A stretch of DNA of 32,417 nt from IMG/VR virus record IMGVR_UViG_3300025151_000166, positions 1-32,417 of that record; one strand, written 5' to 3'. The DNA comes from a virus. The position numbers were made by a program, and so were the translations under genes. The notes beneath the pieces are model-generated. The model saw only the letters and a list, made by a program, of their open reading frames with translations, did not search any database and was not told the DNA's origin. Of this stretch, positions 4,104-32,100 are shown piece after piece (position 1 is the first letter of the stretch; the number at the start of each line of letters is the position of its first letter).

Positions 4104-5105
4104 ATGTCTGCTCCAGATCCTCAGCAGTTTTATACAAAAATACAAGACGTACAACAAAAGTTTGGCGGACTTACGCAGACCTCACAGTTCATGGTTCAAC
4201 TTGGACTTGCTGGCGCTGCAAGTTATGGTGGTTCTTCGGTAGAAGGACATTTAACTAATTCAAAAGTATTCGATAAAAATAATCGAACTGATGATTTTAA
4301 TTTCTTTTGTACTGAGGCGACCTTGCCTGGTTCAACATTTGATGTAATGGAATTGCAAGGTTCGAGGCAAGGTCTGATTGAACGTATTCCCAATCGTAGA
4401 GTTTATACTGATTTTGATTTAACTTTTTATCTTGATGATGAATATAAAATTCTCAGACTCTTTGAGGAGTGGATGAATTACATTGATCCAATTCACAATG
4501 CAGATGAAGTATATTCTGGTAGTGGGAATGGGATGACTGGATTTGGAGATAATAATTGTTTTTATAGATTCAGATATCCTAATTCATACAAGAGACCTAT
4601 TATGATTCATAAGTTTGAGAGAAATCTCTTGAGAAATAAAACTATGAATAGTCGTAGTGGTGGTGTTAGAGATAAGAGTAAATTTAATGTACTGACCTAT
4701 ATTTTTCTTGAATCATTCCCGATGAATATTCAAGCAATTCCTTTTTCTTATGATGGTTCTACTATCACAAAGGTGTCAATCAATTTCGGTTATACTCGTT
4801 ACATTGTAACCAAGAATGCTGGTATTGGTAAACCTGCTAAAAATTTCGGTAGTAGTTTGGCAGTTGGTGGCACTAATTTCTTTAGTGCATTTTCTGCTCC
4901 ACTCTTTGGAGATACAACATTCAGCGAACCTTATGATTTGGATCTTGATATTTTTGGTTCAGGAAACACAGTTGACTTTACTGCTGGTTTTGGACTTCAA
5001 TCTTTCTCTGACCAAGGAATTCGTGATGCTTTCTTAGGTAGTGGAAGTTCATCTCTTGGTCTTGGCGCAAATGATCTTTATGGAACAACAGCTCAATTCA
5101 CTTAA
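4104..5105 (+). CDS. gp54: gp54-like tail tube initiator / baseplate protein
   Basis: This 333-residue protein has the tail-tube protein layout (gp19/gp54 type). An early strand carries the motif CTEATLPGSTFD (residues about 70-80). Then come RIPNRRVYTDFDLTFYLDDE, a helix LRLFEEWMNYID, a strand YRFRYPN, and a late FLESFPMNIQAIPFSYD followed by KVSINFGYTRYIV. T4 gp54 (320 residues) ends its tube domain with a comparable FDVTFAYR strand. In T4, gp54 caps the gp48 ring and nucleates tube polymerisation. After residue about 245 the protein continues in a Gly/Ser/Phe-rich tail with no recognised domain. It begins the rightward baseplate series and is transcribed away from gp4. Assignment to gp54 rather than another tube-fold paralog is a family-level inference. 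Confidence 0.7.
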   Translation: MSAPDPQQFYTKIQDVQQKFGGLTQTSQFMVQLGLAGAASYGGSSVEGHLTNSKVFDKNNRTDDFNFFCTEATLPGSTFDVMELQGSRQGLIERIPNRRVYTDFDLTFYLDDEYKILRLFEEWMNYIDPIHNADEVYSGSGNGMTGFGDNNCFYRFRYPNSYKRPIMIHKFERNLLRNKTMNSRSGGVRDKSKFNVLTYIFLESFPMNIQAIPFSYDGSTITKVSINFGYTRYIVTKNAGIGKPAKNFGSSLAVGGTNFFSAFSAPLFGDTTFSEPYDLDLDIFGSGNTVDFTAGFGLQSFSDQGIRDAFLGSGSSSLGLGANDLYGTTAQFT

Positions 5106-5138: not shown

Positions 5139-5864
5139 ATGCCTTTACCAAAAATTGCTACGCCGACTTATGAGTTGGAATTACCTTCATCTGGAAAGAA
5201 GATTAAGTATAGACCCTTTCTAGTTAAGGAAGAAAAAGTTCTTATTCTTGCATTGGAAAGTGAGGATACAAAACAGATTACAACTGCAATCAAAAATATT
5301 TTAAAAGATTGTATTTCAACTAGAGGAATTAAGGTTGATGAACTTCCTACTTTTGATATCGAATATATCTTCTTGAATATTCGTGGAAAGTCTGTGGGTG
5401 AATCAATTGATTTGGTTGTCACTTGTCCTGATGATGGTGAGACTACAGTTCCGATTAAAGTTTATATTGATGAAATTGAAGTACAGAAGGATGAAAATCA
5501 TACCAAAGATATTAAATTGGATGATTCATTAGTATTGAGAATGAAGTATCCATCTCTTGCTCAATTTGTTTCATCTAACTTTGATTTCAGTGGAAGAGAT
5601 GATTCTGCCATTGAAGAATCATTTAACATGATTGGTGCATGTATTGATATGGTTTATAGTGATGAAGAATCTTGGGCAGCTTCTGATTGTACTAAGAAAG
5701 AATTGATGAGTTGGATTGAAACTTTAAATACTAAACAGTTCCAAGAGATTGAACAATTCTTTAATACCATGCCTAAGTTGTCTTATACAGTTAAGGTGAC
5801 TAACCCGAAGACGGATGTTGAGAGTGAAGTAACTCTGGAAGGATTGAGTAATTTTTTCGCCTAG
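5139..5864 (+). CDS. gp26: gp26-like baseplate hub assembly protein (tail assembly chaperone type)
   Basis: This 241-residue protein (T4 gp26 is 208) starts LPKIATPTYELELPSSGKKI, then KYRPFLVKEEKVLILALES, the typical beginning of the T4 baseplate gp26 family. A run of conserved acidic and hydrophobic segments follows, including RGKSVGESIDL and VTCPDDGET. T4 gp26 is needed for hub assembly and resembles the small tail-assembly chaperones of other tailed phages. AGGA at 5131-5134 is a ribosome-binding site 4 bases before ATG. The last codons (AAT TTT TTC GCC TAG) contain a perfectly phased -1 slippery heptamer. A slip there would extend the protein with the next ORF to a predicted 305 residues. 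Confidence 0.82.
   Translation: MPLPKIATPTYELELPSSGKKIKYRPFLVKEEKVLILALESEDTKQITTAIKNILKDCISTRGIKVDELPTFDIEYIFLNIRGKSVGESIDLVVTCPDDGETTVPIKVYIDEIEVQKDENHTKDIKLDDSLVLRMKYPSLAQFVSSNFDFSGRDDSAIEESFNMIGACIDMVYSDEESWAASDCTKKELMSWIETLNTKQFQEIEQFFNTMPKLSYTVKVTNPKTDVESEVTLEGLSNFFA
5852..5858 (+). other. Candidate -1 programmed frameshift site (T TTT TTC)
   Basis: The heptamer fits the X XXY YYZ rule in the gp26 reading frame: the last base of AAT, then TTT and TTC. After a -1 slip, reading resumes CGC CTA GTC ATG GCT and continues without a stop through the 62-residue ORF to 6055. The zero-frame stop is only one codon after the heptamer. Phage P2 uses the similar T6G for its E/E' tail chaperone. I saw no strong downstream stem-loop; only a three-base GCC/GGC pair is adjacent. 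Confidence 0.65.
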
Positions 5865-5866
5865 TC

Positions 5867-6055
5867 ATGGCTTATATCAGTCTTGAGTCGTATTATAAAA
5901 CGAATTTTGGCTTGATACAGCACCATAAATATTCACTAACGGAGATTGAAAATTTAATTCCTTGGGAGAGGGATATATATGTTGGACTCCTAAATGAATA
6001 TATTGAAGAAGAAAATTTGAAAATCAGGCAGAAAAACGCTAGTTCAATGGGTTAA
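5867..6055 (+). CDS. Small tail-assembly ORF, likely the frameshift extension of gp26
   Basis: The ORF has 62 codons. The sequence SLESYYKTNFGLIQHHKYSL, then TEIENLIPWERDIYVGLL, is a helical, Tyr/Trp-containing pattern. It is similar in feel to the short second proteins of tail-assembly chaperone pairs (lambda T part, P2 E' part), where a polar helix follows an 'IENL-W' type motif. No Shine-Dalgarno sequence precedes its ATG: the bases before it are a T tract and the gp26 stop, and the nearest purine run (GGAAGGA) is about 20 bases away. It is therefore either translated by coupling to gp26, whose stop is 2 bases upstream, or only as a -1 fusion with gp26. Its stop overlaps the next start (TAATG). 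A distant relation to T4 gp51, another hub assembly factor, cannot be excluded. Confidence 0.75.
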   Translation: MAYISLESYYKTNFGLIQHHKYSLTEIENLIPWERDIYVGLLNEYIEEENLKIRQKNASSMG

Positions 6056-7737
6056 TGTTTAAGAACCTTTCGCTACTTAAATTTAATAGACTTAGAAAGA
6101 AAATGACCAATCCTTCTAAAAAGAAGGCATTGGATTTTCTGGGTTCTGGTGAGGAAATATCTGAACAAGCAACCGGCGCTCAAGCACTGAAGAGATCACC
6201 GAAGATAGATAAGAGTCCATTAATAGGTGCTCTGGATGCAAAAAATAAAACAACTGCAGTTGAAATTTTAGATTTCTTTGGATCGAAAAGAACTGAAGAA
6301 AGATTACGGGGTAGTGTAAAAAGACTTAGAAATTCTCTTGTCAATACTTTTGATATCGCAGCACTTCTTAAGACTGTAATTCTTGGTATTACAAAAAAAT
6401 TAGCAGATGCACCCGACAAACTTAAAGGAAAAGGAGGAGGTGGACTGCTTGGATTTCTTAAGAATGGTATTATAAAATTAATTGGAGGACTTGGTGCAAA
6501 AATATTAGGAATCTTGGGTGGAATTGTTAGTTTAATTCCTGGTTTCGCTGGGTTTGCGATACCTGCTTTGATTCTTGGTGGCATATCATTCGCTGTCGTG
6601 AATGAAGATTTCCGCAATGCGGTGCAAGGATTGCTTCCTGGTTCGCAAACAGATGATGCTGTTGACGAAAGTATAGCAGAGAGTGGTGGGGGAGCAACTG
6701 CTCAAGCACTGCGGCAGGAACAGGCAGAAAAGAAAGCAAGTAGAAATCCTTTCCAGAATTTCTTCTATGGTACTATCATGGGAGAAGATGCGGAGTATGA
6801 TAGACAAATAAGGAGAGCAGAAGAAGCACAAGGGACAGAAACAACTGGAACATCTGGAACATCTGGAACTCCTCCTGTCAGATCGACAACTCCTATGCTT
6901 CCTGGTGTTCGTCCAAAAGGAACTGGTACTGAAGGTGATCCAGTAGTCGAGGGAGATGATAGAGAATACTTATTGAGACTAATGATTGCGGAAGCAGGTG
7001 GTGAAGGTGAACTTGGAATGGCTGCTGTTGGAAGATCTGTTCTGAATAGAGCAGGATTGATTCAGGGTGGTGATGTGGGTGCTTACACATTCATGTCAAA
7101 GAGTGGTAGTATAAGGGATGTTATTCAGGCGAAAGACCAATATCAACCTTATGCAGAAGGTAAATTAAATAGAGAACTGACTGCAGATGAAAGAGCAAGG
7201 GCAGAAGCAGCATTGCAACTTGCAGAAGATAGAGCGAGACTCAATAAGAGATTGATTGAAGCAGGAAAATCGGAGACGGAAGCACAAAGAATAGGTGCCT
7301 CCACTGGATTTAGAACTCATGCTGCAAGATATGATGCATCACAGGAAGTCAATGTTACTGAACTTGGTGGACATCGTTTTAATACTGCTGGAAATAGAGA
7401 TTTAAAATTACCAACATTAGAATTAGTACCACCCGTAGAACCGGCACCAAAGGCAGAAACTTTAGTAGAAGGTGAAACGGTCTCTGCTGCTCCAGAAGGA
7501 GTAACGAGAGAAATTGCACAACAAGAAGATGAAGATATGAGTCCTGAGATTGCTCTCTTGCCTCTGGGTGGCATGGGTCAGCAAGAGCAACAAAGACCAA
7601 CAACAGGTGGAGGAGCAATTACAAATCCATCTCTACCTTCAGGTGGTAGTCCGTCTGTAGCTTTCTTGTCTCCATTCAATCCAGATAATTATGAAACTTT
7701 CAACAGTGCATTAATCTATGGAGTAGTACCTTCATAA
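6055..7737 (+). CDS. Virion-associated cell wall hydrolase, SleB/Hydrolase_2-like domain
   Basis: This 560-residue protein has a basic N terminus and then hydrophobic Gly-rich helices (residues about 120-185, with GGGGLLGFL and LIPGFAGFAIPALILGG). A polar linker follows, then a SleB-type cell wall hydrolase domain at about 301-445. The domain begins LLRLMIAEAGGEGELGMAAV, then GRSVLNRAG, with E313 as the likely catalytic glutamate, and ends with the family's GGHRF (438-442). A Pro/Glu/Ala-rich linker precedes a short tail with FLSPFNPDNYETFNSALIY. It probably degrades peptidoglycan during entry, replacing the lysozyme domain that T4 carries inside gp5. The position between gp26 and gp27, and the hydrophobic helices, would also suit a component inside the tail such as a tape-measure-related protein. 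The start overlaps the previous stop. Confidence 0.72.
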   Translation: MFKNLSLLKFNRLRKKMTNPSKKKALDFLGSGEEISEQATGAQALKRSPKIDKSPLIGALDAKNKTTAVEILDFFGSKRTEERLRGSVKRLRNSLVNTFDIAALLKTVILGITKKLADAPDKLKGKGGGGLLGFLKNGIIKLIGGLGAKILGILGGIVSLIPGFAGFAIPALILGGISFAVVNEDFRNAVQGLLPGSQTDDAVDESIAESGGGATAQALRQEQAEKKASRNPFQNFFYGTIMGEDAEYDRQIRRAEEAQGTETTGTSGTSGTPPVRSTTPMLPGVRPKGTGTEGDPVVEGDDREYLLRLMIAEAGGEGELGMAAVGRSVLNRAGLIQGGDVGAYTFMSKSGSIRDVIQAKDQYQPYAEGKLNRELTADERARAEAALQLAEDRARLNKRLIEAGKSETEAQRIGASTGFRTHAARYDASQEVNVTELGGHRFNTAGNRDLKLPTLELVPPVEPAPKAETLVEGETVSAAPEGVTREIAQQEDEDMSPEIALLPLGGMGQQEQQRPTTGGGAITNPSLPSGGSPSVAFLSPFNPDNYETFNSALIYGVVPS

Positions 7738-7741
7738 AATT

Positions 7742-10087
7742 ATGAGAACATTACTTAAGTCACCATTAAAAACTGCTGCCAATAATATTACGAGAATTGG
7801 TTTTACTCCAAAAGCAAGACGTGTTCGCGCACTAGATTTCGATCGTAGATCTGAGTATAAAACTTTTGCCGATTGGATTAAGTCAAGCACCGAGGATTTG
7901 ACTGAATCGCCTCTGCCATCAAAAAGAGAACTTAAAAAATTAGTTAACTTTGAAGTTGCTGGCGGTGGTGGAGGAGGTCTTCTCGGACTCCTGGGTGGAC
8001 TTGGTGGAATTGGACTTGGGGCACTTGGACTGGAAGGTTTTCTTGGTGATAAGATGCCCAAGATTAAGATTCCTTATAGAAGACCAAAACCAAAACCTAG
8101 AGGAAGAAATAGAGGAGGAAATCAAGGAAGAGGACCAGGAAGACCGGGAGATAGAAGTAGAGATTCTAGAAACAATAGAAATAATAGAAGGACTAGGAAT
8201 AATACTACACAAAGACCTGGACGCACAGGTCCCATGTCTGATGCGGAAAGAAGATATAGAAGAAGATTTGGTGATAAAGCAGGAGACAGAAAATTTGGTC
8301 CAAGGCAACAAGGTAGAGTACAAAATAGAGGACTTACAAATCCATTAAGGCAGAGACCGAATGTAACTGGAACTGGTGCTGATAGATTCAGACAGGGAGT
8401 TAGAAGTAATATCCCTGGACAAGGTGCTCGTGTTACTGGTGGTAATCTTGATCGAGCACTGAATACGGGACCTTTAAGAAGAGTTCAACAAGTTGGTAAA
8501 TTTGGTCTTCAAGGCGGCAAAGCGGTGCTTCGTGCAAGTAAATCATTGATGAGAGTTTTCAGTAGAGTTCCTATCATTGGTGCTTTAATTGCTGGCGTCT
8601 TGACATATTTTCAAGATATAGAAGGTGGTAATAATCCTGAACTTCCAGGTGGCGGACCAAATGGTCAACCAGATATGAAATTGGATAAGGCATTATTTAG
8701 TGCTGGTGGTGCTGCTCTTGGTGGTATCATTGGATCTTTCATTCCGATTCCTGTGATTGGAACATTACTTGGTGGTTTTATCGGTGAATACATCGGTGAC
8801 CTTGCGTACATGATCATAAAGGGTGATGGATTCCAGGCAGCTGGTCAAAAATTAATGGGTGATCTTAAGAAACTTTTGAGTGTTGGTCCAGCGATTGCTA
8901 ATTGGGCAAAGCAAGGATTTGACAGATTCTATGAAGGATTTCCAAAAATTAATGTTTTTGGTATGAAAATTCTTGATCTAAGTAAAACTGGTGAAGGACT
9001 TCTTAAACTTCCAAGAGCATTCTTTACAAAACTGCCAATGAATGAGACTAAAGAGCAGGAAGCAGAAAGATTAAAGAAAGAAGAAGAAATACGAAAAAAA
9101 GTATTAGAAGAAGAAAAGGCAAATAGGGGACAAGAATCAGATCAACTACCATACACAACTACTGAAGATGGTGAAGTTGTTCCCATAGGTCCTGTTGATG
9201 AACCTGTTACTGCTGAGCAAGATTTACAACTCACACCAATGAGTGATGTTAGCACTGTTGATGTTGGTCTGAATAATCTTGTTTCTGTCGCAGCAATGAC
9301 TGGCCGAAGTGATCCGGGTGGTCCGATAATGACCAGTGGTAGAGGTATGAGAGGTGGAAGGCATCATGCAGGCGTAGATATTGGAACGGGACATCAGAGA
9401 GGATGGTATGTTGCTTTTAGATTAAAAGGAAAGGTAAGTTTAGTTCAGTATCTCAGTGGATATGGGAATACAGTTATCATTGAAGCAGATGGTAAAGATT
9501 TTCTCTTTGCTCACTTAGCACGTCAATCAGATTTAAGACCAGGACAATCTTATAATGGTCAGATTATCGGTGAGATTGGTAACACTGGAGCTGGAACCGG
9601 AGAACATCTACACTTTGAAGTGAGAACTGCTGGCGGTGGTAGCGGAACTGATATGGATCCAATGCCATATGTCAAGTATCTCATGATTGGTAAACTCGGA
9701 TCAGGGACTCCGCAAACTCTATTAGCAAGAGCAGACGCAAGACAAACAGTTGCTGATGATGGTACAATTACAACAACTAATCGTCGTGGTCGTCAGGTAA
9801 AAGTTTCACCAGATACTTCTGCACAAAGAACTGGAAATATTGAGAGGGATCCTAAAGTTAACAAATCCAAGACTCAAACTTTGATTATAATGGAAAGTTT
9901 GGCAAAGATGGCCAAGGCATTAGGTGGCGGACAAGAAGAAAAACCTCAAGTTGCCGTGCTTCCAGTTCCCAATGAACCTTCTCCTCGTGGAAGAGGTTCC
10001 ATGAATGTTGGAAATTCGATGGTGTCTTCTGCTTCGCTATTAAATAATTACTGGCAAACAACTCTTCTCTCTAAACTATCATCATAA
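7742..10087 (+). CDS. Virion protein with M23 (LytM) peptidase domain and Arg-rich region
   Basis: The protein has 781 residues. The order is: N-terminal basic segment; Gly-rich hydrophobic segment (about 75-105); an extremely Arg/Gly/Asn-rich tract (about 110-210); two hydrophobic helical stretches with Gly zippers (about 275-290 and 320-360); a charged coiled-coil-like segment (about 430-460); and an M23 zinc metallopeptidase domain (about 520-640). The zinc motifs are complete: H542-x3-D546 (HAGVD), H591 (FAHL) and H622-L-H624 (HLHFEV). M23 enzymes cut peptide cross-links in peptidoglycan. The Gly-rich hydrophobic N-terminal part resembles that of the preceding gene, so the two may be related partners at the tail tip. 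A tape-measure role is an alternative, as this is the largest helical protein before gp27. The ATG has no evident ribosome-binding site and follows the previous stop by 4 bases. Confidence 0.75.
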   Translation: MRTLLKSPLKTAANNITRIGFTPKARRVRALDFDRRSEYKTFADWIKSSTEDLTESPLPSKRELKKLVNFEVAGGGGGGLLGLLGGLGGIGLGALGLEGFLGDKMPKIKIPYRRPKPKPRGRNRGGNQGRGPGRPGDRSRDSRNNRNNRRTRNNTTQRPGRTGPMSDAERRYRRRFGDKAGDRKFGPRQQGRVQNRGLTNPLRQRPNVTGTGADRFRQGVRSNIPGQGARVTGGNLDRALNTGPLRRVQQVGKFGLQGGKAVLRASKSLMRVFSRVPIIGALIAGVLTYFQDIEGGNNPELPGGGPNGQPDMKLDKALFSAGGAALGGIIGSFIPIPVIGTLLGGFIGEYIGDLAYMIIKGDGFQAAGQKLMGDLKKLLSVGPAIANWAKQGFDRFYEGFPKINVFGMKILDLSKTGEGLLKLPRAFFTKLPMNETKEQEAERLKKEEEIRKKVLEEEKANRGQESDQLPYTTTEDGEVVPIGPVDEPVTAEQDLQLTPMSDVSTVDVGLNNLVSVAAMTGRSDPGGPIMTSGRGMRGGRHHAGVDIGTGHQRGWYVAFRLKGKVSLVQYLSGYGNTVIIEADGKDFLFAHLARQSDLRPGQSYNGQIIGEIGNTGAGTGEHLHFEVRTAGGGSGTDMDPMPYVKYLMIGKLGSGTPQTLLARADARQTVADDGTITTTNRRGRQVKVSPDTSAQRTGNIERDPKVNKSKTQTLIIMESLAKMAKALGGGQEEKPQVAVLPVPNEPSPRGRGSMNVGNSMVSSASLLNNYWQTTLLSKLSS

Positions 10088-11397: not shown

Positions 11398-11625
11398 ATG
11401 GAAAACATTGAAACACACATTCAAAAAGATCGAGAGATACTTGCAAACCCAACGACCTCACCGCAACAACGTCGTCATATTGAGGGTGAGTTACATGAAC
11501 TTGAAGTTTACGTAGAAAATCACAAAAAAGAAATTGAAGCAGGAGACCACCACGACCCAACTGCTTTGGAACTATATTGTGAGTTAAACCCAGAAACAGA
11601 TGAGTGTAGGATTTACGAAGATTAA
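11398..11625 (+). CDS. cp12: CP12-like regulator of the Calvin cycle (auxiliary metabolic gene)
   Basis: This is a small 75-residue, highly charged protein. The C terminus DPTALELYCELNPETDECRI plus YED matches the CP12 GAPDH-binding tail: Cys-x8-Cys with Asn-Pro between, then acidic 'ECRxYED' at the end. The middle (HIEGELHELEVYVENHKKEI) fits the helical region corresponding to the CP12 PRK-binding 'VEEL' segment. The N-terminal cysteine pair found in plant and many cyanobacterial CP12 proteins is absent; only the C-terminal pair exists. Host CP12 locks GAPDH and phosphoribulokinase in an inactive complex in the dark. Cyanophage CP12 is thought to slow the Calvin cycle and steer NADPH to nucleotide synthesis. 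It sits between the hub genes gp27 and gp5, and its stop overlaps the gp5 start. Confidence 0.86.
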   Translation: MENIETHIQKDREILANPTTSPQQRRHIEGELHELEVYVENHKKEIEAGDHHDPTALELYCELNPETDECRIYED

Positions 11626-18782: not shown

Positions 18783-21700
18783 ATGCCTCTTTCAAGGTTA
18801 GAAAATTTTCTGATTAATACCGATGGTAATATTCTTTATGTAAATCCATCAGATCTGGACGCTACCGATAGTTTTGATAACAAAGGTAACTCCTTAACGA
18901 GACCGTTCAAGACTGTTCAGCGTGCTTTAATAGAAGCAGCAAGATTTGCATATCAAGCGGGACCAAGTAACGATAAGTTTGATAATACTACTGTCTTATT
19001 GTATCCTGGCACGCACTTAATTGATAATAGACCAGGATTATATATTCAAAATAATGGTGGGTCAGCGCAATTTTTAGATCAAAGTAAGTCAGTAGTTGCT
19101 TCTCCAAACATTGAATTAAACAACTCATCAATATTTGATTTGAATAATGCAAATAATGTATTGCAGAAATTCAATTCAGTTGAAGGTGGAGTTATTGTAC
19201 CTAAGGGTACTTCAATTGTTGGTTTAGATCTTCGTAAGACAAAGATTGTACCACTGTATGTTCCTGAACCAGATAATAATAACGTCCCTCGATCAGCAAT
19301 CTTTAGAATTACTGGTGGATGCTACTTCTGGCAGTTTAGTCTCTTTGACGGAAAACAAGATGTATTTTTTGACAATAATGACTACTCCAAGAAAGCATCG
19401 CCATCATTCTCTCACCATAAACTGACATGCTTTGAGTATGCTGATGGTGTGAATACGGATTTGACTACGGGTCTGACTGATCTGCAGATGTATTATTATA
19501 AGTTGATGAATGCTTATGGTAATGACACTGGTGCTAGAGAGATTATTAATTTCCCAACTAATGATGACTTTGAACCTAACAATCCAGAATTTAAGATTGT
19601 CGGTGATTTAGTTGCTAACGATCTTCTGCTCCAAGGTAGTGCAACTTCAGATGGAATTGTTGCTACAGTTAATACAGAGAAACCACACGGACTGACTCTT
19701 AATGATACAGTTAGAATCGTTGGTATTAGTTCGGAAACATATAACGGAAGATTTACAGTTTCTGGAATTACCAGTGAAAGAACGTTCTCATATAATATGC
19801 TTGCTGATCCAGAAGCAAATGTTGTTTCAACAACTGCTGGAACCAGTAAAGCAATTGTGGAGATCGATAATGTTAATGGTGCATCTCCATACATTTTTAA
19901 TATCTCAATGAGATCTGCCTTTGGCATGTGTGGTATGCACGCTGATGGTGCAAAGGCAACTGGATTTAAGTCTATGGTTGTTGCTCAGTTTACCGGTATT
20001 GGTCTTCAAAATGACGACCAAGCGTTTGTAATTTATAATCCCTCTACCGGTTCTTATGACACAAATAGTTCAACAGATTTGTCCAATAGACCACTGCACC
20101 TGAATCAAGATGCAATCTATAAGCAAGATTATACAAACTTCCATGTTAAATCATCAAATGATGCTGTAATTCAAGCAGTTTCTGTTTTCGCTATTGGATT
20201 TGCAGAGCATTTTGTCTCTGTTGATGGTGGAGACCAATCAATTACTAACTCAAACTCTAACTTTGGTGCAAAATCTTTAGCATCTAGTGGATTTAGAAAG
20301 CAGTCGTTTGATCGTGATGACACTGGATATATTACTCATATTGTTCCGCCAAAAGATTTGCAACAAGATGAGTTTAATGTTGGATGGAGAACACTAAATG
20401 CTACATCAGGTGCTTCTGGAATTTCAACATCTGGTGCATTGTATATTCTTGGTGAAGTTGATGAAAATAACCCACCAACAAATATTACAAATGGATTTAG
20501 AGTTGGTGCAAGGGAGGGAGAAGTTTTATATCTAGATGTAACTCTTGATGGCATTCCAAAAACATTCTCTTCGAGAGTTGTGATGCAGTCTAAATCTGGA
20601 ACTTCTGTTTCTGCATATAAAAAAGAATTTACGGTGTCGTCTTTCACCAAAGATACAGATACACCAGCATCTCAGTTGACATTAGATGGAAGTCATAGTT
20701 TCCTAGCTGGAGAATCTGTAAGAATTTACAGTGACAATGGAATCCTTCCTGATGGAATTGAATACGGTAGACAGTATTATGTAATTGATACTGGTGCAAC
20801 AACCATCAGATTATCAAAAACATTTAACGGTGCTGTTGCTGCAACTCCAGATAATATTGATATTAAGAACACTCTTGGAGGTACTTTGAGAGTATGTAGT
20901 ACAGTGACTGATAAAATTCCTGGTGAACCAGGACATCCAATTCAATTTGATTCTGATGGTTGGCATGTTATAACAGACACTACTTTCTCAGATCCAGATA
21001 CTGAAGATACAATATTTAATGGTTTCCAAGGATTTGGAACTGCTATTTCGGCAAACAATTCTTCAACATACATCAAGAGAAAGTCTGAATCTCGTGATCT
21101 AAAAGATAGAACTTATAGATTAAGATACGTCATTCCAAAAGAGTTTGTGAATGCAAAGTCTCCGGAGAAGAACTTTATTATTCAGGAATCTAAAACTGTA
21201 AAAGATGAGACCACTATTAATGACATGAGGTCTCATCGTAATCCTCGTGTGATTGCTGGTATTACGACTACTGGTTTTGTTGCGACTGTGACATCAGAGA
21301 TTGATCATGGTCTTTCTGTTAATGATGTAGTTAGACTTAAGAACGTAGTTAGTAATACTAATCTAACTGCTGCAGACAATACTGGATTGAATGGATACTT
21401 TACTGTTACTGAAGTTCCGACTTCTAGAACATTTAAGTTTACAAATCCAAATTCAATCGGAATGGGAATATATGTTGATAGAACTCATTCCTGCAGAAGC
21501 ACAAATGACGCTACTGCAACCATAGATGATCTTCCTGTGTTTGAGAGAAATGAATATGATACAACATATGTGGTTGAAAATGTAGAACAACTACAAGAAT
21601 ATATTCCTTCACAACAGGATGGTGTATATTATCTGACCGTTTTGACGGGTAACATTACTCCAACAGTAACTGAATTTGATGACCAAAAGTTTAAGCAAAG

Positions 21701-24700
21701 TCCATATTATTTGTATCCAGTAGTTGATAAAGATAATTTGATTCTGGATCCTTTGCAAACTGTATCTGTCGCATCAAATTCTTTAATCGGAAAGACTCTT
21801 GTTAATGATGCACAAAATAGTCTTACAAAAGAAAGCACTATTAACTATTTGAGAGATAATAAAGTTGGTTATGCTATCACTGGTGCTGAATCTACTTCGG
21901 GCGGTTCAGCAACCATATTCCTTGCACAAAATCATAATCTGAACGCTGTTGAAAGAATTGATGCTGTAACTACCGGTGGAACTGGATATGGAAACGTTGC
22001 TTCGGGAACTACCTCATTATACAATGTTCAAACTACATCGGATACTGGTTTCGGTGAGGGTTGCACATTAGAACTTACAGTTGCCAATCAAGTTGTTACC
22101 GCTGCTAAAGTAATGAATGGCGGTTGTGCATATATTAACGGAACAACACTGACAATTGCTGGTGGTAATAACAATGCAAAAGTTAGGATTACTGTTTTAG
22201 ATGCTGCCAGAACCGGAAGAGGTGTTGAACTTGTTGGAATCGGAACAGCAGGAAATAGAAATAATAGCGGTTACAATGGATTGCATCGTATTACTGAAGC
22301 AACTAAACCAAAACAATTTCAGTGTGCGATAGTTGGAGACACAAGGTGGTCAGCTGGAAACGTTGTTCAGGGAACAAATCCTGGAACATTTGTTTCTAGT
22401 CCAAATGCCCTGGCCTTCTTTACTGGAAATGGTGCTCAGTTGACAGGTCCTGTAATGGGTGGTAAGAGTATTATTTCTTCTTCCGTTGGTATCTCAACAG
22501 TAGAAACCATTGATGAGCATGGTTTTGCCGTTGGTAATAAAATTAAGTTACATCATATTAGTGGAGTTGGTCACACCATATTCTCTGAGCAATCTTTTAT
22601 CGTTCAGAAAATTGTCAGTAGTAAGAAATTTGAAATCAAAAATCCATATGGTGACACTCCTGATGTAGAAGTTAATATTGCATTCGCATTGAGGCATGGT
22701 TTAGGAGCGACTGGTGAGGATACTTCATTAACAACGGAAAAGATCAATGGTAGAATGTTCCCACTTATTTCTAAAAGTGTTCATAGGGAACTGAATGCAA
22801 ATGTTTCTGCTGGTGCCGCAGCGGTAGGAATTACATCAACTGCAGGAATAGAACCCGGAGATTTCATTCAAATTTCGGATGAGATCATGAGAGTCAAGTC
22901 TCTGGATGCAAATGGACAGACATTAAATGTTATCCGTGGTGTGCTTGGATCTAGGTCATCAACTCACTCGAATACTGATCCAGTTAAAATTGTTAGGGCA
23001 GTTCCTTCTGAGGTTCGTAGATTCTCAAGTATTCGTGCCTCGGGTCATACCTTTGAGTACATTGGTTATGGTCCTGGTAACTACTCTACTGCATTACCAC
23101 AGAAACAAGTCAGAGTTATCAGTGATGAGGAAGAATTCCTTGCTATTTCTAAGGAACAAAAAGGTGGTGTTACATTCTTCTCTGGCATGAATGATCGTGG
23201 TGAGTTCTTCACATGGGATGGTAGAATCGTATCAAGAGAGAACTTCTTAGGAGAAGTTGGATCCGATGCTTCAAGTTCATTTGATGATCTTTATGTAAGA
23301 AACACTTTACGTGTTGGTGGTGGAGCGAATCAAAATCTACCATCAGAATTTAGAGGTCCGGTTAATTTCATTAATAAAATTACATCAACTTCAGTTGATG
23401 GTATTGATGCAATTAAGATGATTTTGAAAGGGACAGCAATTTCCGAACCCTTCTTCCAAGTTGGACCAGATGCTAATCCATCACTGATTGTTAATCAAGC
23501 AACTCAGCGTGTTGGTGTTAAGATTGCCGAACCAAGACATGAATTGGATGTTAATGGAACAATTCGTGCGAACATTTATGAAAACTTTAAGTTAAGTGAT
23601 CTTCCAAACAGTTTAACCGAAGAGGCAACTTTCGCTAGAAATAGAGTTCTGAAAGTAAATGACAAAGGCGATGGATATGAATTGGTTGACGTTCACGAGG
23701 TCGATTCTTTTGCACTAAGAAGTTATGGTATCAGTAATGATGGAACTGTATACTCTGGTATTGGAACAGTTATTAGTCTTGGTGGGGCTGTAGCAATTGC
23801 AGCTGGATCTGGTACTACTATGACTGCTAGTGATCTCGGCACACTCGTTTCAAATGGAGCACTTCAAGTTACTGGAATTGACACTTCAAGATTCTTTATT
23901 GGCGAAAAGTGTAAGATTTTTGGTGTGACAGATCATTCAGAGTCCGGTTTGATTGCTGACCCTAGTTGGTCAACCATGACTGCGACTAAAACAGGAACAC
24001 ATGAAGTAGGTGGTTCACCTGGATCATCAACAATGCGTTATTGGGTGGCACAATATAATTTTAATGATGGTAGAGTTGGATTTGCTAGTGCAATCGGTAT
24101 ATCAACGATTACTGCTTTGCAGACGATTGATAATTTTAATGATGTCGATCATGTTACTCTAAATCTAGCAAGAACTGATACTAATCATGGATTGCTTGTT
24201 TATAGGCAGTATACTTCATCTGGAGCTGGTGTTGCAAATATAGATAATGCAGAGTTAATTGGAATTCTTGGACCAAAAGAACTTACGAATTCTACATCTA
24301 ATATTAACTATAAAGATTATGGAACGTATGATCAAACTGAGTGGTCTCCTAATGGATCACGCAATGAATATAAAGATGAAAGTCAGATTCACTTCCCCAA
24401 CATTGCAACCACTGGTCACAGAAGAGGATTTGGAGTTGCTGAGATTATTGGAATTGAAGCAAACAAAATTACATTAGCAAACGAACTGATTCGTTTCAAT
24501 GATAGTGAAGTTGGTTTCGGAACAACAAGTGCAGTCAAAGTCGTACATGAAAATACTGATGCAATTGATGAAGCTATTCAAGATACAATTTCTAGTGGAG
24601 GTAACTACTTAAGTCTTCCTAGTGGAACATACCTCACCAATAAACTTGTTATTCCAACAGGATTTACGATTAAAGGCAATGGTAAAAACACCATAATTAA

Positions 24701-25955
24701 ACGTCAATTCTTCGCTAACGATGGTGATGGCAACTTAGTTGGTATTGGAACAACTGTTGGTAAGGATATTACACTGCAGGACTTTACCATAGATGGTAAT
24801 AATGCAAACAATATTAGATATGGTGAAACAACTGCGGCAAGAAATGCTTACTTAGCATACTTACCCTCTGTTACTTCCGTAGCAATGAGAAGTGTTGAAA
24901 TTAGAAATAGTGCTGAGCATGGTCTTTGGGTTCAGGATTCAACTAGATTGTCAATAACTGATTGTGATATTGTTGATGGTTCTCTAACCGATAGATTTGA
25001 ATATGGTCCAATCAACGCACAAGGTTCTCAAGTTCTCAGAATCCACGATTCCCTCTTTGAGAATTATCCTGCTGCGGTAGATGTTTCTGCAACTGAGGTT
25101 ACCTCGACTGGTGGAAACATCATTAGAAATTGTGGATCTGGTATTAAGGTCTTTGCTAGCGGTAAGATTAGTACAAAGGATAATATTATTCTTGGACCAT
25201 CTGATGAGCATATTCCATCACCAGATATCTTTGATAGTGACTTTGATTCTGTCAACGTTTCGATTGATCCTGATGTTAACTTCAGTGGACCTACATTCCT
25301 TTATATCCGTGATGGTAATCCATTCAACATTGCATCAAATGCTGGTGTAACAATTATCTCTGCAGGAATCGGAACCGTAATTGGAACCGGAACTACTAAT
25401 GAATCTCTTGGAATTGCATTTGAACAGTTTGATCTACCTACTCCCGATAATGATCCTAGCCTCGTTGATAGAACAAATGGTTTCCTCAAGATTGACCTTA
25501 CTGCAGCTAAGACGGTAGGATTTGGAACACGTAGAGATATGAATATGGGTTATGAAATTATTGCTGAAGAGTATTTACAACAACCATCATCTATCTCGAC
25601 GTTTGCTGGAATCTCCACAGGTGCTTGGTATAAGGAAGGTGCCGCAGTCATCGGTGCTGGGGTAACAAATTATCTTGTCACATTAGCGACCCCCGCACAT
25701 TTCCAGGCATTCTCTGTTAATCAAGTTGTGAAACTTGTAAATCACCAGACAACACCTGTTGTAACCAGTCAGTTGATGGTTCTTGAAGAGAAGAATGATG
25801 TTTCTGCAACTGTTAAGCAACTAAGATTTAGATTAGTTAATAACGATGCTGATCTTACTGCCGCATCAGTAACCTCAGAGTCTAATGCTCAAGGTGGATA
25901 TATATCTATAAGGGATAGATACGTAATCGCAAAAGGAAGAGTCGGAGTCATTTAA
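18783..25955 (+). CDS. Giant tail fibre-like structural protein with pectin-lyase-type beta-helix
   Basis: The protein has 2390 residues. The N terminus (residues 10-60: DGNILYVNPSDLDATDSFDN, then SLTRPFKTVQRALIEAARFA) is of a kind I know from large cyanophage virion proteins. Three related beta modules follow at about 287-330, 826-890 and 1230-1290. Their common pattern is an early hydrophobic strand, an HGL or HGF turn, a V-R/K-hydrophobic strand and a final TF/KF strand. Near 1360-1410 is a surface-type module with GDFIQISDEIMRVKSLD and VIRGVLGSRSSTHS. Residues about 1920-2150 look like a parallel beta-helix of the pectate lyase type: DAIDEAIQDTISSGGNYLSL, then PSGTYL, TIKGNGKNTIIK, ITLQDFTIDGNNAN, GSGIKV. 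Such domains in phage tails may bind or cleave host polysaccharide; no catalytic residues can be assigned. No clear ribosome-binding site is visible. Confidence 0.7.
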   Translation: MPLSRLENFLINTDGNILYVNPSDLDATDSFDNKGNSLTRPFKTVQRALIEAARFAYQAGPSNDKFDNTTVLLYPGTHLIDNRPGLYIQNNGGSAQFLDQSKSVVASPNIELNNSSIFDLNNANNVLQKFNSVEGGVIVPKGTSIVGLDLRKTKIVPLYVPEPDNNNVPRSAIFRITGGCYFWQFSLFDGKQDVFFDNNDYSKKASPSFSHHKLTCFEYADGVNTDLTTGLTDLQMYYYKLMNAYGNDTGAREIINFPTNDDFEPNNPEFKIVGDLVANDLLLQGSATSDGIVATVNTEKPHGLTLNDTVRIVGISSETYNGRFTVSGITSERTFSYNMLADPEANVVSTTAGTSKAIVEIDNVNGASPYIFNISMRSAFGMCGMHADGAKATGFKSMVVAQFTGIGLQNDDQAFVIYNPSTGSYDTNSSTDLSNRPLHLNQDAIYKQDYTNFHVKSSNDAVIQAVSVFAIGFAEHFVSVDGGDQSITNSNSNFGAKSLASSGFRKQSFDRDDTGYITHIVPPKDLQQDEFNVGWRTLNATSGASGISTSGALYILGEVDENNPPTNITNGFRVGAREGEVLYLDVTLDGIPKTFSSRVVMQSKSGTSVSAYKKEFTVSSFTKDTDTPASQLTLDGSHSFLAGESVRIYSDNGILPDGIEYGRQYYVIDTGATTIRLSKTFNGAVAATPDNIDIKNTLGGTLRVCSTVTDKIPGEPGHPIQFDSDGWHVITDTTFSDPDTEDTIFNGFQGFGTAISANNSSTYIKRKSESRDLKDRTYRLRYVIPKEFVNAKSPEKNFIIQESKTVKDETTINDMRSHRNPRVIAGITTTGFVATVTSEIDHGLSVNDVVRLKNVVSNTNLTAADNTGLNGYFTVTEVPTSRTFKFTNPNSIGMGIYVDRTHSCRSTNDATATIDDLPVFERNEYDTTYVVENVEQLQEYIPSQQDGVYYLTVLTGNITPTVTEFDDQKFKQSPYYLYPVVDKDNLILDPLQTVSVASNSLIGKTLVNDAQNSLTKESTINYLRDNKVGYAITGAESTSGGSATIFLAQNHNLNAVERIDAVTTGGTGYGNVASGTTSLYNVQTTSDTGFGEGCTLELTVANQVVTAAKVMNGGCAYINGTTLTIAGGNNNAKVRITVLDAARTGRGVELVGIGTAGNRNNSGYNGLHRITEATKPKQFQCAIVGDTRWSAGNVVQGTNPGTFVSSPNALAFFTGNGAQLTGPVMGGKSIISSSVGISTVETIDEHGFAVGNKIKLHHISGVGHTIFSEQSFIVQKIVSSKKFEIKNPYGDTPDVEVNIAFALRHGLGATGEDTSLTTEKINGRMFPLISKSVHRELNANVSAGAAAVGITSTAGIEPGDFIQISDEIMRVKSLDANGQTLNVIRGVLGSRSSTHSNTDPVKIVRAVPSEVRRFSSIRASGHTFEYIGYGPGNYSTALPQKQVRVISDEEEFLAISKEQKGGVTFFSGMNDRGEFFTWDGRIVSRENFLGEVGSDASSSFDDLYVRNTLRVGGGANQNLPSEFRGPVNFINKITSTSVDGIDAIKMILKGTAISEPFFQVGPDANPSLIVNQATQRVGVKIAEPRHELDVNGTIRANIYENFKLSDLPNSLTEEATFARNRVLKVNDKGDGYELVDVHEVDSFALRSYGISNDGTVYSGIGTVISLGGAVAIAAGSGTTMTASDLGTLVSNGALQVTGIDTSRFFIGEKCKIFGVTDHSESGLIADPSWSTMTATKTGTHEVGGSPGSSTMRYWVAQYNFNDGRVGFASAIGISTITALQTIDNFNDVDHVTLNLARTDTNHGLLVYRQYTSSGAGVANIDNAELIGILGPKELTNSTSNINYKDYGTYDQTEWSPNGSRNEYKDESQIHFPNIATTGHRRGFGVAEIIGIEANKITLANELIRFNDSEVGFGTTSAVKVVHENTDAIDEAIQDTISSGGNYLSLPSGTYLTNKLVIPTGFTIKGNGKNTIIKRQFFANDGDGNLVGIGTTVGKDITLQDFTIDGNNANNIRYGETTAARNAYLAYLPSVTSVAMRSVEIRNSAEHGLWVQDSTRLSITDCDIVDGSLTDRFEYGPINAQGSQVLRIHDSLFENYPAAVDVSATEVTSTGGNIIRNCGSGIKVFASGKISTKDNIILGPSDEHIPSPDIFDSDFDSVNVSIDPDVNFSGPTFLYIRDGNPFNIASNAGVTIISAGIGTVIGTGTTNESLGIAFEQFDLPTPDNDPSLVDRTNGFLKIDLTAAKTVGFGTRRDMNMGYEIIAEEYLQQPSSISTFAGISTGAWYKEGAAVIGAGVTNYLVTLATPAHFQAFSVNQVVKLVNHQTTPVVTSQLMVLEEKNDVSATVKQLRFRLVNNDADLTAASVTSESNAQGGYISIRDRYVIAKGRVGVI

Positions 25956-25958
25956 TCC

Positions 25959-28900
25959 ATGCCAGACAATACTAACGTAAATAACAATTCAGCAGTCGTC
26001 GTAGTCGGCAGGACTGCTCCGGTGCCTCCTGGTCAACAGAAGGCTGAGAAATCAATCCCGGTCGTTATTGCTAGCGACCAAGCTGCAATTCCAGTTGAAG
26101 AACAGAATAAAGTACAATCAGAGGTCGCTCTATCTCTGTTAGGTATTCCAAGATCTGAAGTTGCTCTTGGTATCTTTGCTGACGTTAACACCTATGACGT
26201 AAACCCATCTGAGTGGACTGCAACTCCAGAACAATTTGGTGGAAAATCAACAGAGGGTGTTTACTCTGGTATCGGACAGACGCAAGGTCATGGTTTAACT
26301 CACATTCCAGAAGAATCTGGAGCATTGATTGAAGCACCTGCTGATGAACATGCGATTCTGACATCCAAAAGATTCTTTAGATATCAACCTGGTCGTGTAT
26401 CCTCTGCTACGTTTGGTGTTAAGACAACACTAATTGACGATAATGGATCCTCCATTAAGAACCCTGCCATTCGTAAGTATGGTATCTTTGACAACTATGA
26501 TGGGTACTATTGGGAAACAAGAAATGATGGGACAGGAGATAATTTTTCTGTTGTAAGAAGAACACAATCATTAGCATTTGATAATCCACTTACATTTGTT
26601 ACTCAACAGACTGAGGATTATGGTACAACTAGTCCATATGATCCTCTAGAACGAAGAGGATCAGAGTCTACGGGAATTACATCAACTACACCATATACTG
26701 GATTTGTAAATAAAAAACTTGGAGATTTGGTTATCTACAGAGATAATCTCTTGATGACTCATGCTGGAATGTATGATCAGTCATTGTTACAACCCAAAGC
26801 AACCATTGGTATTACAACAATTACTAATGGACAAACAATCTACAGTGCTGATTTGGTTAAAAATGTTATCGATGCTGTTTATGACATCGATGCTGGATTA
26901 ATGACCATCACCACAGGCACTGCTCATAATTTCCATTTAGGAAAGTGGGTTACAGTAGCAGGTATTGGAATGACTTGTTATATTGATGATTCTTTAATAA
27001 AGACTTATCCAAATAGAAATGATGGATACACTGTCGTAAGAGTTGACGCTACAAATAAGTTTACCATCAATGTTGGTGTGTCTACTGTTCCAACATTTTT
27101 TCACGGTGGCGGCCGTGTTGTCGGTCTTTCAACCGGTCAGTATGTTTCATATGAAAAGGATAGTGATCAATCAGTCATTGGCGGATTTACTGACACTCAG
27201 ATTTATAAAGTCCAATCAATTAAACATAATAGTACCACAGGTATTAGTACAATTCAACTTGAGACTCTAGCTGGTGCTGATGTTACAGGATTAACAAATC
27301 AGACTGCTGCTTCAGCAACAGGAACAGGTAATCATAGATTAGTTACACCCGTTCCATTTGTTCAACCCACTACTGGGTCTGCAATTGCTAATTCTAATGT
27401 ATATTCTAGTGTTAAACCAAGCGGAATGTTCCCATACAAATATGAGACCGCTGACGGGGATCAAGAGGGATATATTGATACTACATTAGGTTCTGATCAG
27501 GCATCAACTTTAAAAACTCAGATTGATAATGTCAATAACTATTATGATAGATGGGTCAATCAAAACGTTGCATTAGAATACTTAAATGTATATGAATATC
27601 GTGTACCAAGATCTAGATTTAGTGGTGACCGTTTAGATGGTACGACCGATGATCTTTTATATAGTGATGCTGTTGCAGATAAGAGAGCAGGTTCTCAGGT
27701 TCAAAATGCCGAAACACTAGAATTTGAAACCGATACAAGTATTTGGAATCTTGACTTTACCAAGGTTACCATGTATAAGATTGAATTCTCTTGGTATGGT
27801 GCTGTTGGTGCTCTATTCCTTGCGTATGTCCCTGTAAGCAACGGAGAGGCACGTTGGGTACGTGTTCACCACCTGAGGGCATCAAACCAGTTGAAGGTCT
27901 CCTCACTGGGCAATGCGACCCTTCCTATCACCTATTTGGTGTATGGTGGAGGCAATCCAAATAGATTTGGATATGTTAACTCAAAGAGAATTCAAAGCAC
28001 CTCTAATTATGGTTCTTCCTCACAACATATTGTTAAGTATGGTGCTTCATACTATATCGATGGTGGAGACAGAGGAACTGTTAAATTATTCAGTCATGGA
28101 AATCCAAGTGATGAAGAAGTGTTTGGTTCAAAGAGATCTTTCCAGGTAGGATCAATAGGAGCAGGATCTACAGCCATTAATCTTTCCGATGCCGATAGTG
28201 CAACAGATCCATCTATTGAATGTGGTGATAATGTCAGTCCAATGAATTCATATTGGGTTGGTGCAAAGGTAATTACTAGTGAGCCTCTTGATCAGAATAT
28301 TGAAGTTACTTATGTTGACATCAGTCAGAAGAAGTTGTTCTTGTCTGCACCACTCGCTAATAAATCCATTGGCAGTCTAGAAATTATTCCAAATCGCAAA
28401 ACTTCTTTGATTGGTATCAAGTGTAGAGACTTCATTCAGAGCAGCACTGGTAAGAGTGTAAGAAACAGAACTCAGGTTTACCCAACACGTCTTGCAACTG
28501 GATCAACAGGTGTAATTAAACTTGATCTGATTAAGTCTCCGATCTTCCAAACAGCATCAACTGTTTCTGGTTCCCTTCAACTCTCATCTAACACTAATAT
28601 TGGTAAGAGAGGAAAACCAACTCTACTTTCAGTAAGCAACAACACGTATCTTTCTGAAGGCACTGGTGTATATGGTTACTTCAGAGGTACTTTTGATGGT
28701 GACGCATCACAGAGAGTTATATCTGTTTTAGGTTACCTTGAAAGGAGGGCAGCAGTGACTGGAACTCCTGGATACTACTTCTATGCTCTCAATTCAACTT
28801 CTGATACAATTACATTAACTAGTAATAGAGCGTTCCTCGTTGAAGCAAATACCAGTCCGATTGGTGCAACTGTATCTGCTACCATTCCTTCAGAATCTAC

Positions 28901-29168
28901 ATTAGATGCATTGTCTTCTGTGAAGATTAGTCCTCAGATCAAATCACCAATACCGGGAACTGGCACGATAGTTGCAAGTGTATATGTTCCAGCGTCAGGA
29001 GAAGAGTTTAATCTTCAATCATACTTTGATTACAATAAAGAATACCTCTCGTTCCCATTGACTAATATTGTTGATAGTTTGTACGTTTGTGGTTCATCTC
29101 AGAAGTTCTATGATGCTTCACTACCCTCAGCAGAAATATCAGCAAGTTTGACCTGGGAGGAGCAGTGA
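25959..29168 (+). CDS. Large virion structural protein (fibre-like), paralog of the next gene
   Basis: The protein has 1069 residues. It starts with a polar Asn-rich segment and then GRTAPVPPGQQKAEKSIPVV, IASDQAAIPV, a pattern common in large marine-phage structural proteins. RFFRYQPGRVSSATFGVK lies near residue 139. Near residues 600-640 is VTMYKIEFSWYGAVGALFLA followed by NGEARWVRVHHL, and near 692 KYGASYYIDGGDRGTVKLFS. All three motifs recur in the gene at 29172, so the two are paralogs. A structural role in the baseplate periphery or fibres is inferred from size, neighbours and composition. Codons for residues about 627-666 are unusually GC-rich compared with the rest. The start follows the previous stop by 3 bases. 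Confidence 0.6.
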   Translation: MPDNTNVNNNSAVVVVGRTAPVPPGQQKAEKSIPVVIASDQAAIPVEEQNKVQSEVALSLLGIPRSEVALGIFADVNTYDVNPSEWTATPEQFGGKSTEGVYSGIGQTQGHGLTHIPEESGALIEAPADEHAILTSKRFFRYQPGRVSSATFGVKTTLIDDNGSSIKNPAIRKYGIFDNYDGYYWETRNDGTGDNFSVVRRTQSLAFDNPLTFVTQQTEDYGTTSPYDPLERRGSESTGITSTTPYTGFVNKKLGDLVIYRDNLLMTHAGMYDQSLLQPKATIGITTITNGQTIYSADLVKNVIDAVYDIDAGLMTITTGTAHNFHLGKWVTVAGIGMTCYIDDSLIKTYPNRNDGYTVVRVDATNKFTINVGVSTVPTFFHGGGRVVGLSTGQYVSYEKDSDQSVIGGFTDTQIYKVQSIKHNSTTGISTIQLETLAGADVTGLTNQTAASATGTGNHRLVTPVPFVQPTTGSAIANSNVYSSVKPSGMFPYKYETADGDQEGYIDTTLGSDQASTLKTQIDNVNNYYDRWVNQNVALEYLNVYEYRVPRSRFSGDRLDGTTDDLLYSDAVADKRAGSQVQNAETLEFETDTSIWNLDFTKVTMYKIEFSWYGAVGALFLAYVPVSNGEARWVRVHHLRASNQLKVSSLGNATLPITYLVYGGGNPNRFGYVNSKRIQSTSNYGSSSQHIVKYGASYYIDGGDRGTVKLFSHGNPSDEEVFGSKRSFQVGSIGAGSTAINLSDADSATDPSIECGDNVSPMNSYWVGAKVITSEPLDQNIEVTYVDISQKKLFLSAPLANKSIGSLEIIPNRKTSLIGIKCRDFIQSSTGKSVRNRTQVYPTRLATGSTGVIKLDLIKSPIFQTASTVSGSLQLSSNTNIGKRGKPTLLSVSNNTYLSEGTGVYGYFRGTFDGDASQRVISVLGYLERRAAVTGTPGYYFYALNSTSDTITLTSNRAFLVEANTSPIGATVSATIPSESTLDALSSVKISPQIKSPIPGTGTIVASVYVPASGEEFNLQSYFDYNKEYLSFPLTNIVDSLYVCGSSQKFYDASLPSAEISASLTWEEQ

Positions 29169-29171
29169 TTC

Positions 29172-32100
29172 ATGGCGAATGGCGGAAAGGATATCAAGTT
29201 CGGACACGACAAACGTCCGATTACACTAGTAGAAGGTACTGAACAAAATTTATTTAATATTGCAAACGGTGAAATATTAACTGACGAATTTGGAACTCCC
29301 CTGATTACAGAGGTTGATACATTTTTTCTTAAAGACGCTTCAGCGGATAGATCTACATCTGTTTCATTTCCCAAAGATAGTCGAACAGCATATACAAGAG
29401 GCGAGTCTCAAGTAGTAGGAATTCATACGGCAAATTACGGTGTAACTGGTAAAATAGTTTCAATTGGTTTACCATTTACAGTAAGGAAAACAGACAATAG
29501 TGTAGTTACTACCAGTTCTTCTATCAGAGATACATCTAATACTTTAATTCCATTTGATTCTGCCACTATTAATATCGTTGGTGTCGGAACGACAGTTGCT
29601 GTACTTACTAGAACAGAAATTACGAAAGTTGTTGCAAGTGGTGGAGATGGTGATGTTATAGTATTTAATAGTAGCGTTGGCATAAGCACGATTGTTGGTG
29701 TCAAAGTTGGTGACTCGGTATCAGGTAAGGGAATACCTGAAGGCACTAGAGTTACAAGAGTTAAGAAGGATGCCGTTTTTATTAACTCAAAAACAACAGG
29801 AGTAAGTAACGTAAATCTACCAGTCGAATTTAGGAGATATGTAGAGGCAGTAAAATTAGCACAGCAATCTTGGAAAATACAAGAATCTTTTAGAGAAACT
29901 AGTGAAGTTAGCACAACTTTACTTGGTGTTAATAGAGCAGAGACTCAACTCAGTTTATTCTCTAACGTATCATCATACGGATTAGAAAGTGATAGTTTTG
30001 AGTTTTATAGTGACAATGGTGGAAATAATTTCGCATCTTGGGATAATAGACAAAATGCTACTTATGGAAAAAGATATAATGCTAGATTATCAGAGGAGAC
30101 TCAAGAGTCTGGAATTAGATTAGAGGCATTTCCAACTCCATACTCTTATCCATTTGGTCCTAAATTTGAAAAATATGGTCTTTATAGTCAGGACGCTCAT
30201 CAAAAATATAAAGATTTTGTAACTCTTGGAAATCAATTATATAATTACTTTGATTCTGGTGATGGGGCATCGTTAGGTTACCCCGCTGACTGGAAAGATA
30301 AATTCTTAAATCCAAACACTGCGACTATAGTAGGACTTGATGTAGGATATCCTCAAGGACTTCAATCAGGATTTTATAATGTTGATATTTGGACAGATAC
30401 CTGGAGAGACATTTCACAATCTCAGTTAACTGATCCTGTAACTGCTGAAACTTTTAATTTTGCAAGAGTCAACGCCCTCTTGGGAAGCAGTTATGCTTCT
30501 GATAATACACGACCAGGTTATACTTCCAGTCAAAAAAGATATGCATATCTCCAATCGAGAAGAGTTTTTAGATATCAACCAGGAAGAATTAGTGGATTTA
30601 CTTTTGGTTTAAGATCATCTGTCGAACCAAGGGAAGGTGCGATTTTAGAATGGGGCGTTAAGAATCCAACAGATCAATACGTATTTAGAATAGTTGCAGG
30701 ACAATTATCAATTGTTAGGCGCAGTACAGTTCCACTCTCATCTGATGTTCTTGCAAGAAATGGGTTAAGTATTACGGATCAAGAAGAAAATCCATCAGGA
30801 AATCCATTTGATAGTAAAGAATATTATACTATTAATATACCTAGAGATAATTTTAATGGAGATCCTTTAAATGGAAATGGACCTTCTGGTTGGAATATTC
30901 AACCAGAAAATGTCACAATGTATAAGATTGAATTTGGTTGGTATGGTGCTATCGGTGCTAGATTCTACGTCTATATTCCTGAAGGTAATGGTGGAGCACG
31001 ATGGATTCCTGTTCATACTTTGATAATAGAAAATCAATTAGAGTCTCCATGTCTTCAAGATTCATATTTTAGACTTGTGTATTCTTTAGATATATTTAAT
31101 ACTGAAAACCTAAGAACACCACAATTCCTTTACAAGTATGGTGCATCTTATTATATTGACGGTGGTGATGAAGGAACTGTAAATATTTTCTCAGTTTCTT
31201 CTGGACAAAAAACTATTATTGGTTCCGGAGATAGAACCATGCTTGGTATCACGCCAAAAAATTTAATTCTCAGTAGTGCTGGTGAAGAAATTGCAAACAA
31301 AAAACTAATTATACCAACTCTCACTGCATTTACTAGTGATTCTTTAGCAAAGGTTCAGGTCAAAACATGCAAGGCCTGTCCAGGTTTTGGACATGTTTAT
31401 ACTCCAGGAGTTGCAAGTACAGTATTTGATCCTGATAGAAATTTTGAAATGCGATTTGATGCGACCGGAAATAAAGTAAGTGCAATCAATACTTCTGTTT
31501 TCAGATTAACTGATGTTGATTCAAAAGTAATTGCACCAACAATTTACAATGCATATATTAGTGAGATAGACTTAGAAAGTGAAATTGGTAACACTGGAAC
31601 ATATCAAAGTGCTGTCATTAAAGGATTGGGACCAGGATTGACAGGAAATCCTGGAAGTTATGATAGCAGTAGACCCCTTGCTGGCAGTGATGTCACAGTT
31701 GTACATGCAACCACGGGTGTCACAGCTACTGTTAATCTTGATGCTACCTATCCAGAATCAGTAAGACTTAGTAATTATAATGGTTATGCCGCTTCAGATT
31801 TTCCACTTACTGGTTCAAAAATAGAAATTCAATTTATGAATCCAAGTGCAAGTGACTTAGGACATTTTTCTGATTTTATTGTTGGTTTGACTGATGCTGT
31901 ACCACAAGTTGCCTTTCCTAATGTATTAACTGGATTTAATTATGATAATTTGACAAATCAAACAACTTTACCAAATAATAAGATTCTATTTGGAGAACAT
32001 TCACATTCCTTTGCAACATTTAATGAAGATGGTGATGAAATTGGAGAAGGAAGAGCCGGTTCCCTTAGAATGGAAATGGATCGTAGAATTCCCACGGTAT

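Follow-up and report, generated by a model that had tools for sequence, protein, structure and literature searches.

Is the short ORF that follows gp26 in this cyanophage a gene in its own right, or does it encode the C-terminal part of a longer protein made by ribosomes that change frame? The window, which is the whole 32,417-base IMG/VR virus fragment analysed, carries gp26 (5139..5864, + strand; 241 aa) and a 62-aa ORF (5867..6055, +) whose ATG lies 2 nt after the gp26 stop, as it does in many relatives. The initial annotation treated this ORF as anonymous, but the same piece is already annotated as 'gp51' in cyanophages. The best explanation of the locus, which belongs to a T4-like (Kyanoviridae-type) cyanophage, is very probably a programmed −1 frameshift that yields a short and a long tail assembly chaperone.

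The slip site and its conservation

The heptamer T TTT TTC is found at 5852..5858 (+), one codon before the 0-frame stop TAG (5862..5864, +) that ends the short product. The last codons of gp26 are AAT, TTT, TTC, GCC and TAG, which places the heptamer in the phase X XXY YYZ, and both coordinates and codons agree with the initial annotation. A −1 slip would read TTT TTT CGC CTA GTC ATG and onward, opening 67 codons. The extension made in this way, TAC-C (5858..6055, +), has 65 codons including the 62-aa ORF, and together with 240 residues of gp26 it gives the predicted 305-residue fusion proposed earlier.

Rarity of the heptamer was considered as evidence and dropped, TTTTTTC not being over-represented in the window (10 matches on both strands vs 14.6 expected by shuffling). 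Window genes contain 40 in-phase X_XXY_YYZ heptamers in 9169 codons, just one of which is T TTT TTC. This heptamer, at 5852-5858, is also the only one of the 40 whose −1 frame stays open for more than 42 codons.

Conservation was examined in 276 gp26 loci whose stop could be read, obtained from scans of IMG/VR and cultured phages. These were reduced to 145 marine phage lineages at <85% gp26 nucleotide identity, the sole correction for kinship. In-phase TTTTTT is kept in 145/145 lineages, so the alignment upheld the heptamer across related phages. Elsewhere in gp26, TTT accounts for 70% of Phe codons, and T is the third base of 41% of codons. The codon before the slip TTT is AGT, TCT, AAT, GCT, GAT or GGT; it encodes Ser, Asn, Ala, Asp or Gly, and its third base is T in all 145 lineages. 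The second slip codon is TTC in 124 lineages, TTT in 11, TTA in 9 and TTG in 1. With TTA and TTG, slipperiness is maintained despite the change from Phe to Leu. A clade with T TTT TTA (L124-L144 and part of L149-L167, e.g. L127) has Leu for Phe in this way and is slippery still.

The distant phages Moby, PX29, K567 and Cr30 have T TTT TTC or T TTT TTT. Few relatives were gained with Caulobacter and Aeromonas gp26 as queries, and T2 has no such slip site at the end of gp26. In Ackermannviridae relatives the −1 frame is open too, but motifs such as ATTTTC or GTTTTT take the place of a canonical X XXY YYZ heptamer. Among Ackermannviridae-type phages and some Vibrio relatives (L181-L198, L085, L086, L090, L091), the open −1 extension is accompanied by NTTTTC or GTTTTT. 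The extension is mostly missing from their annotated genomes, though VAP7 has a short ORF annotated there. The sequence evidence for the predicted −1 frameshift in the window is very strong.

Putative stimulators of frameshifting

A purine-rich, Shine-Dalgarno-like element, GGAAGGA (5837..5843, +), ends 8 nt before the heptamer in the window; relatives have GAGGR ~8–10 nt before it. Pairing of this stretch with the 16S rRNA tail has a mean energy of −7.6 kcal/mol, vs −5.7 kcal/mol for synonymous recodings, and is stronger than the recodings in 123/145 lineages. The Glu codon within the element is GAG in 76% of cases vs 29% in the rest of the gene.

The initial annotation pointed to bases 5859-5960 as the region to fold. 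Taken whole, this region behaves like its shuffles (z −0.32); a local hairpin was found there, solely by comparing relatives. The hairpin (5867..5891, +) pairs 5867-5874 with 5884-5891 and starts 8 nt past the heptamer, with the ATG of the second ORF inside its stem. In the window it is weak, with 8 bp, 3 of them G-U, and −6.3 kcal/mol. It corresponds to 9 of the 11 pairs of a conserved helix that is present (at least 9/11 pairs) in 55/142 lineages. Downstream folding in the ATG group, the lineages with ATG at the usual place, is far more stable than in synonymous recodings (mean z −3.46; 81/87 below −1), vs z of −0.07 to −0.57 in five control regions. Compensatory changes occur in the helix, for example U-A to A-U to G-C at one pair, and its covariation score is 0.160 vs 0.124 when shuffled and at most 0.100 in slid versions. 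Cells changed on both sides number 26 vs 10.9 in shuffles. Because two slid versions were higher in this count (30 and 46), the argument for the hairpin is carried by the covariation score and by the 78.6% of cells that are paired.

The hairpin is not universal; elsewhere the structures are different or less stable. Because lineage groups differ, RNAalifold returned no consensus structure when run on all 142 lineages together. A different inverted repeat, AGTCTT...AAGACT, lies ~19–20 nt after the heptamer in relatives without the first hairpin (L200, L201, L203, L206-L208, L212). The upstream stretch and the hairpin, whose presence is computed, would serve as frameshift stimulators. The balance is even on whether marine T4-like phages share a three-part cassette of anti-SD stretch, hexa-T and a group-specific hairpin that buries the 'gp51' start; the free-standing cyanophage 'gp51' would then be no gene.

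Separate gene or extension

In 139/139 lineages the −1 frame stays open for 55 codons, and other frames do so in none, so the relative frame of the two ORFs proposed at the outset holds across relatives. Cultured cyanophages agree with this arrangement, and P-SSM2, S-SM2 and S-RIM2 carry the same signal; in their annotations the ORF start is offset by 15, 18, 24 or 63, or the ORF is omitted. Stop readthrough was tried as a route into the second ORF and rejected, as the 0 frame past the gp26 stop closes within ~25 codons (13 distant or cultured loci tested).

We considered whether the 62-aa ORF might be a gene of its own, 'gp51', with initiation at ATG 5867 translationally coupled to termination of gp26 and the T-run incidental. 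Annotators treat the ORF in this way and its ATG is close to that stop, but the comparison of relatives makes this reading very unlikely. The second ORF is hardly a separate gene because 32/138 lineages have no ATG, GTG or TTG within 8 codons after the slip. These start-less lineages still conserve FFR..L.H..LENYY..NF, so that the protein is kept from the slip onward. The residue at the ATG position is M in 83 lineages and L in 55, as for an ordinary residue. Conservation of the spacer codons before the ATG (R, I/L/V) was set aside, as the 0-frame codon and the stop impose part of it. The initial annotation had noted that the ATG lacks a ribosome-binding site, and this absence is conserved: the mean anti-SD duplex energy at the ATG is −1.3 kcal/mol, vs a background of −1.4 and −3.0 at the gp26 start. 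The ATG also lies within a stem, and coupling would leave the invariant in-phase hexa-T unexplained. With the ATG retained in the window and in 105/138 lineages, some extra independent initiation may occur.

A fusion could also be encoded by mRNA on which RNA polymerase, rather than the ribosome, slipped at the T-run. T-runs are known transcriptional slippage sites and some relatives have T7–T8; the window has six Ts only, usually followed by C in the lineages (TTC in 124/145). The codon phase is invariant, and the conserved Shine-Dalgarno-like element and hairpin fit ribosomal stimulation, which leaves polymerase slippage highly improbable. It is scarcely credible that constraint on a C-terminal S-F-F protein motif is alone responsible, with no recoding. 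The F-F residues are indeed conserved in gp26, but such constraint does not account for TTT fixed in every lineage against 70% usage, for T fixed as the third base of codons for five amino acids, or for a separate conserved reading frame that starts at this point.

The programmed −1 frameshift first suggested for this locus, making a G/GT-like pair, is supported by the conservation of heptamer, relative frame and missing ribosome-binding site alike. Most ribosomes would end at TAG 5862 and produce gp26 as TAC-N, the 241-aa short chaperone. A minority would be paused by pairing of GGAAGGA with 16S rRNA and by the hairpin ahead, shift back one base on T TTT TTC and continue through the 62-aa ORF. 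The slip product, a 305-aa TAC-NC, would correspond to lambda GT and T4 gp51. TAC-N would coat the tape measure protein, while the C-terminal part of TAC-NC would recruit tail tube subunits. Slipping itself, its frequency and the chaperone function in this phage we infer from comparison of sequences.

Chaperone family, tail module and known systems

gp26 matches PF12322 (E 5.8e-74) and phrog_150 (E 1.3e-81). Its AlphaFold model has a pLDDT of 86.9, and the first 86–96 residues of the model match three proteins of bacterial or phage origin, 3FGX (RBSTP2171; Z 8.0), the HK97 tail assembly chaperone 2OB9 (Z 7.5) and YqbN 3KLU (Z 7.2). These are the top three of 996 chains, above the rest, with the match limited to about the first 90 residues of gp26 and in a Z range of 7–8 that also holds unrelated matches. 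Foldseek gave an E of only 0.58 for the model against 2OB9, and the gp26 profile matched none of the sequences of solved structures.

The extension matches phrog_634 (E 3.1e-27) and the C-terminal part of phrog_150 (E 1.9e-4); Pfam gave no family above cut-off for TAC-C. T2 carries gp26 and gp51 as separate, divergent genes, and both products match PF12322 along its whole length. T2 gp51 matches PF12322 over residues 1–219 of 219 (E 4.3e-55) and in addition matches phrog_634. Its C-terminus resembles the second ORF (E 1e-4) and is absent from T2 gp26. The 62-aa ORF matches only this C-terminus of T4-type gp51, the remainder of gp51 being a gp26 paralogue. Because T2 gp51 alone has the ORF2-like C-terminus, the cyanophage 'gp51' corresponds only to the tail end of T4-type gp51, and the predicted frameshift product restores the full arrangement. 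The suggestion of a hidden homolog of the G/GT system gains support from the match of the gp26 N-terminal domain to the tail-chaperone fold and from T2 gp51 as a one-ORF version of the fusion. PMC3004832 lists T4 gp26 and gp51 among the chaperones of hub assembly. T2 gp26 and gp51 found no genuine match in any solved structure; gp25 found the T4 baseplate 5IV5. This contrast bears only indirectly on whether the two proteins are absent from the finished particle. The cyanophage annotation should be corrected, as 'baseplate hub' gp26 and 'gp51' probably form a single chaperone locus with two protein products.

Directly 5' of gp26 lies the tail tube protein gene (4104..5105, +; PF23849 E 5.5e-17, phrog_45 E 9.5e-35). 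A 560-aa ORF (6055..7737, +) is a candidate tape measure gene with a SleB-like hydrolase domain (PF07486 E 9e-5, under the curated cut-off), its tape-measure matches being weak (phrog_58 E 0.015, phrog_167 E 0.03). Caulobacter phage Cr30 has the pair of gp26 and extension too, followed two ORFs later by a 562-aa gene annotated as tail tape measure. The gene order is tail tube, TAC-N, TAC-C and candidate tape measure, the last assigned through weak matches and the one Cr30 annotation, and the locus points to the expected place of the tape measure gene of these phages.

Several other features of the window were observed. The ORFs at 6055-7737 and 7742-10087 are consecutive tail ORFs with cell-wall hydrolase domains (SleB-like, weak, and M23 peptidase, respectively). 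A CP12-domain gene at 11398-11625 (PF02672 E 1.2e-12; phrog_627) places a host-metabolism gene among the tail genes, and it has the strongest Shine-Dalgarno sequence of seven gene starts compared (−8.8 kcal/mol). Three consecutive very large ORFs of 2390, 1069 and 1082 aa occupy 18783-32417, the last of them running off the end.

A frameshift-made tail chaperone is not new in kind, and the locus adds a well-supported example to those described. The abstract of one study reportedly states that several T4-like groups retain frameshifting and that the T4 genes in question are 26 and 51. The initial annotation knew of no frameshift in the gp26 region of T4-like phages; chaperone frameshifting in T4-like phages is already credited to Vladimirov, Gautam & Davidson, who identified the chaperones of these phages (2022, Virology 566:9-15; pmid 34826709). 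Later papers that cite this work describe separate short and long chaperone genes that replace frameshifting in some T4-like phages (PMC10885494) and TAC-N genes of T4-like phages that carry poly-T slippery signals (PMC12846349). No description of this site was found in the literature on cyanophage tail-chaperone frameshifts, and the details that may be new are the conserved stimulators and the lineages without a start codon.

The gp26/gp51 chaperones of T4-like phages share the PF12322 family and the short/long pair with the window locus. In contrast, T4 and T2 make the pair from two separate genes, 26 and 51, with no frameshifting. Two routes thus lead to one short/long pair: frameshift in most lineages and two genes in T4/T2. 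The TAC locus of Vandenendeviridae/Andersonviridae (phage Adele; PMC12846349) also has a T-rich motif at the TAC-N end and an open −1 frame through a separately or hypothetically annotated gene; its motif is GTTTTT rather than TTTTTTC and the phage families are different.

The three-part layout of internal Shine-Dalgarno-like element, slippery heptamer and downstream hairpin is shared with E. coli dnaX, where the element lies ~10 nt upstream of the heptamer A AAA AAG. The dnaX frameshift product is the short one, whereas in the window the long product would be made by frameshifting. With stimulators preserved by evolution, the locus offers a test case for frameshift tuning in cyanobacterial hosts. 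The lambda heptamer, GGGAAAG, differs from that of the window, and the Shine-Dalgarno-like element and, in one group, the hairpin are conserved in the cyanophage lineages. In lambda G/GT the short chaperone gene sits between the tail tube and tape measure genes, and a −1 slip close to its end gives a minor long product (PMC5009743). In the window locus the −1 slip would likewise occur close to the end of gp26, and the gene order would match that of lambda if the weakly supported tape measure assignment is right.
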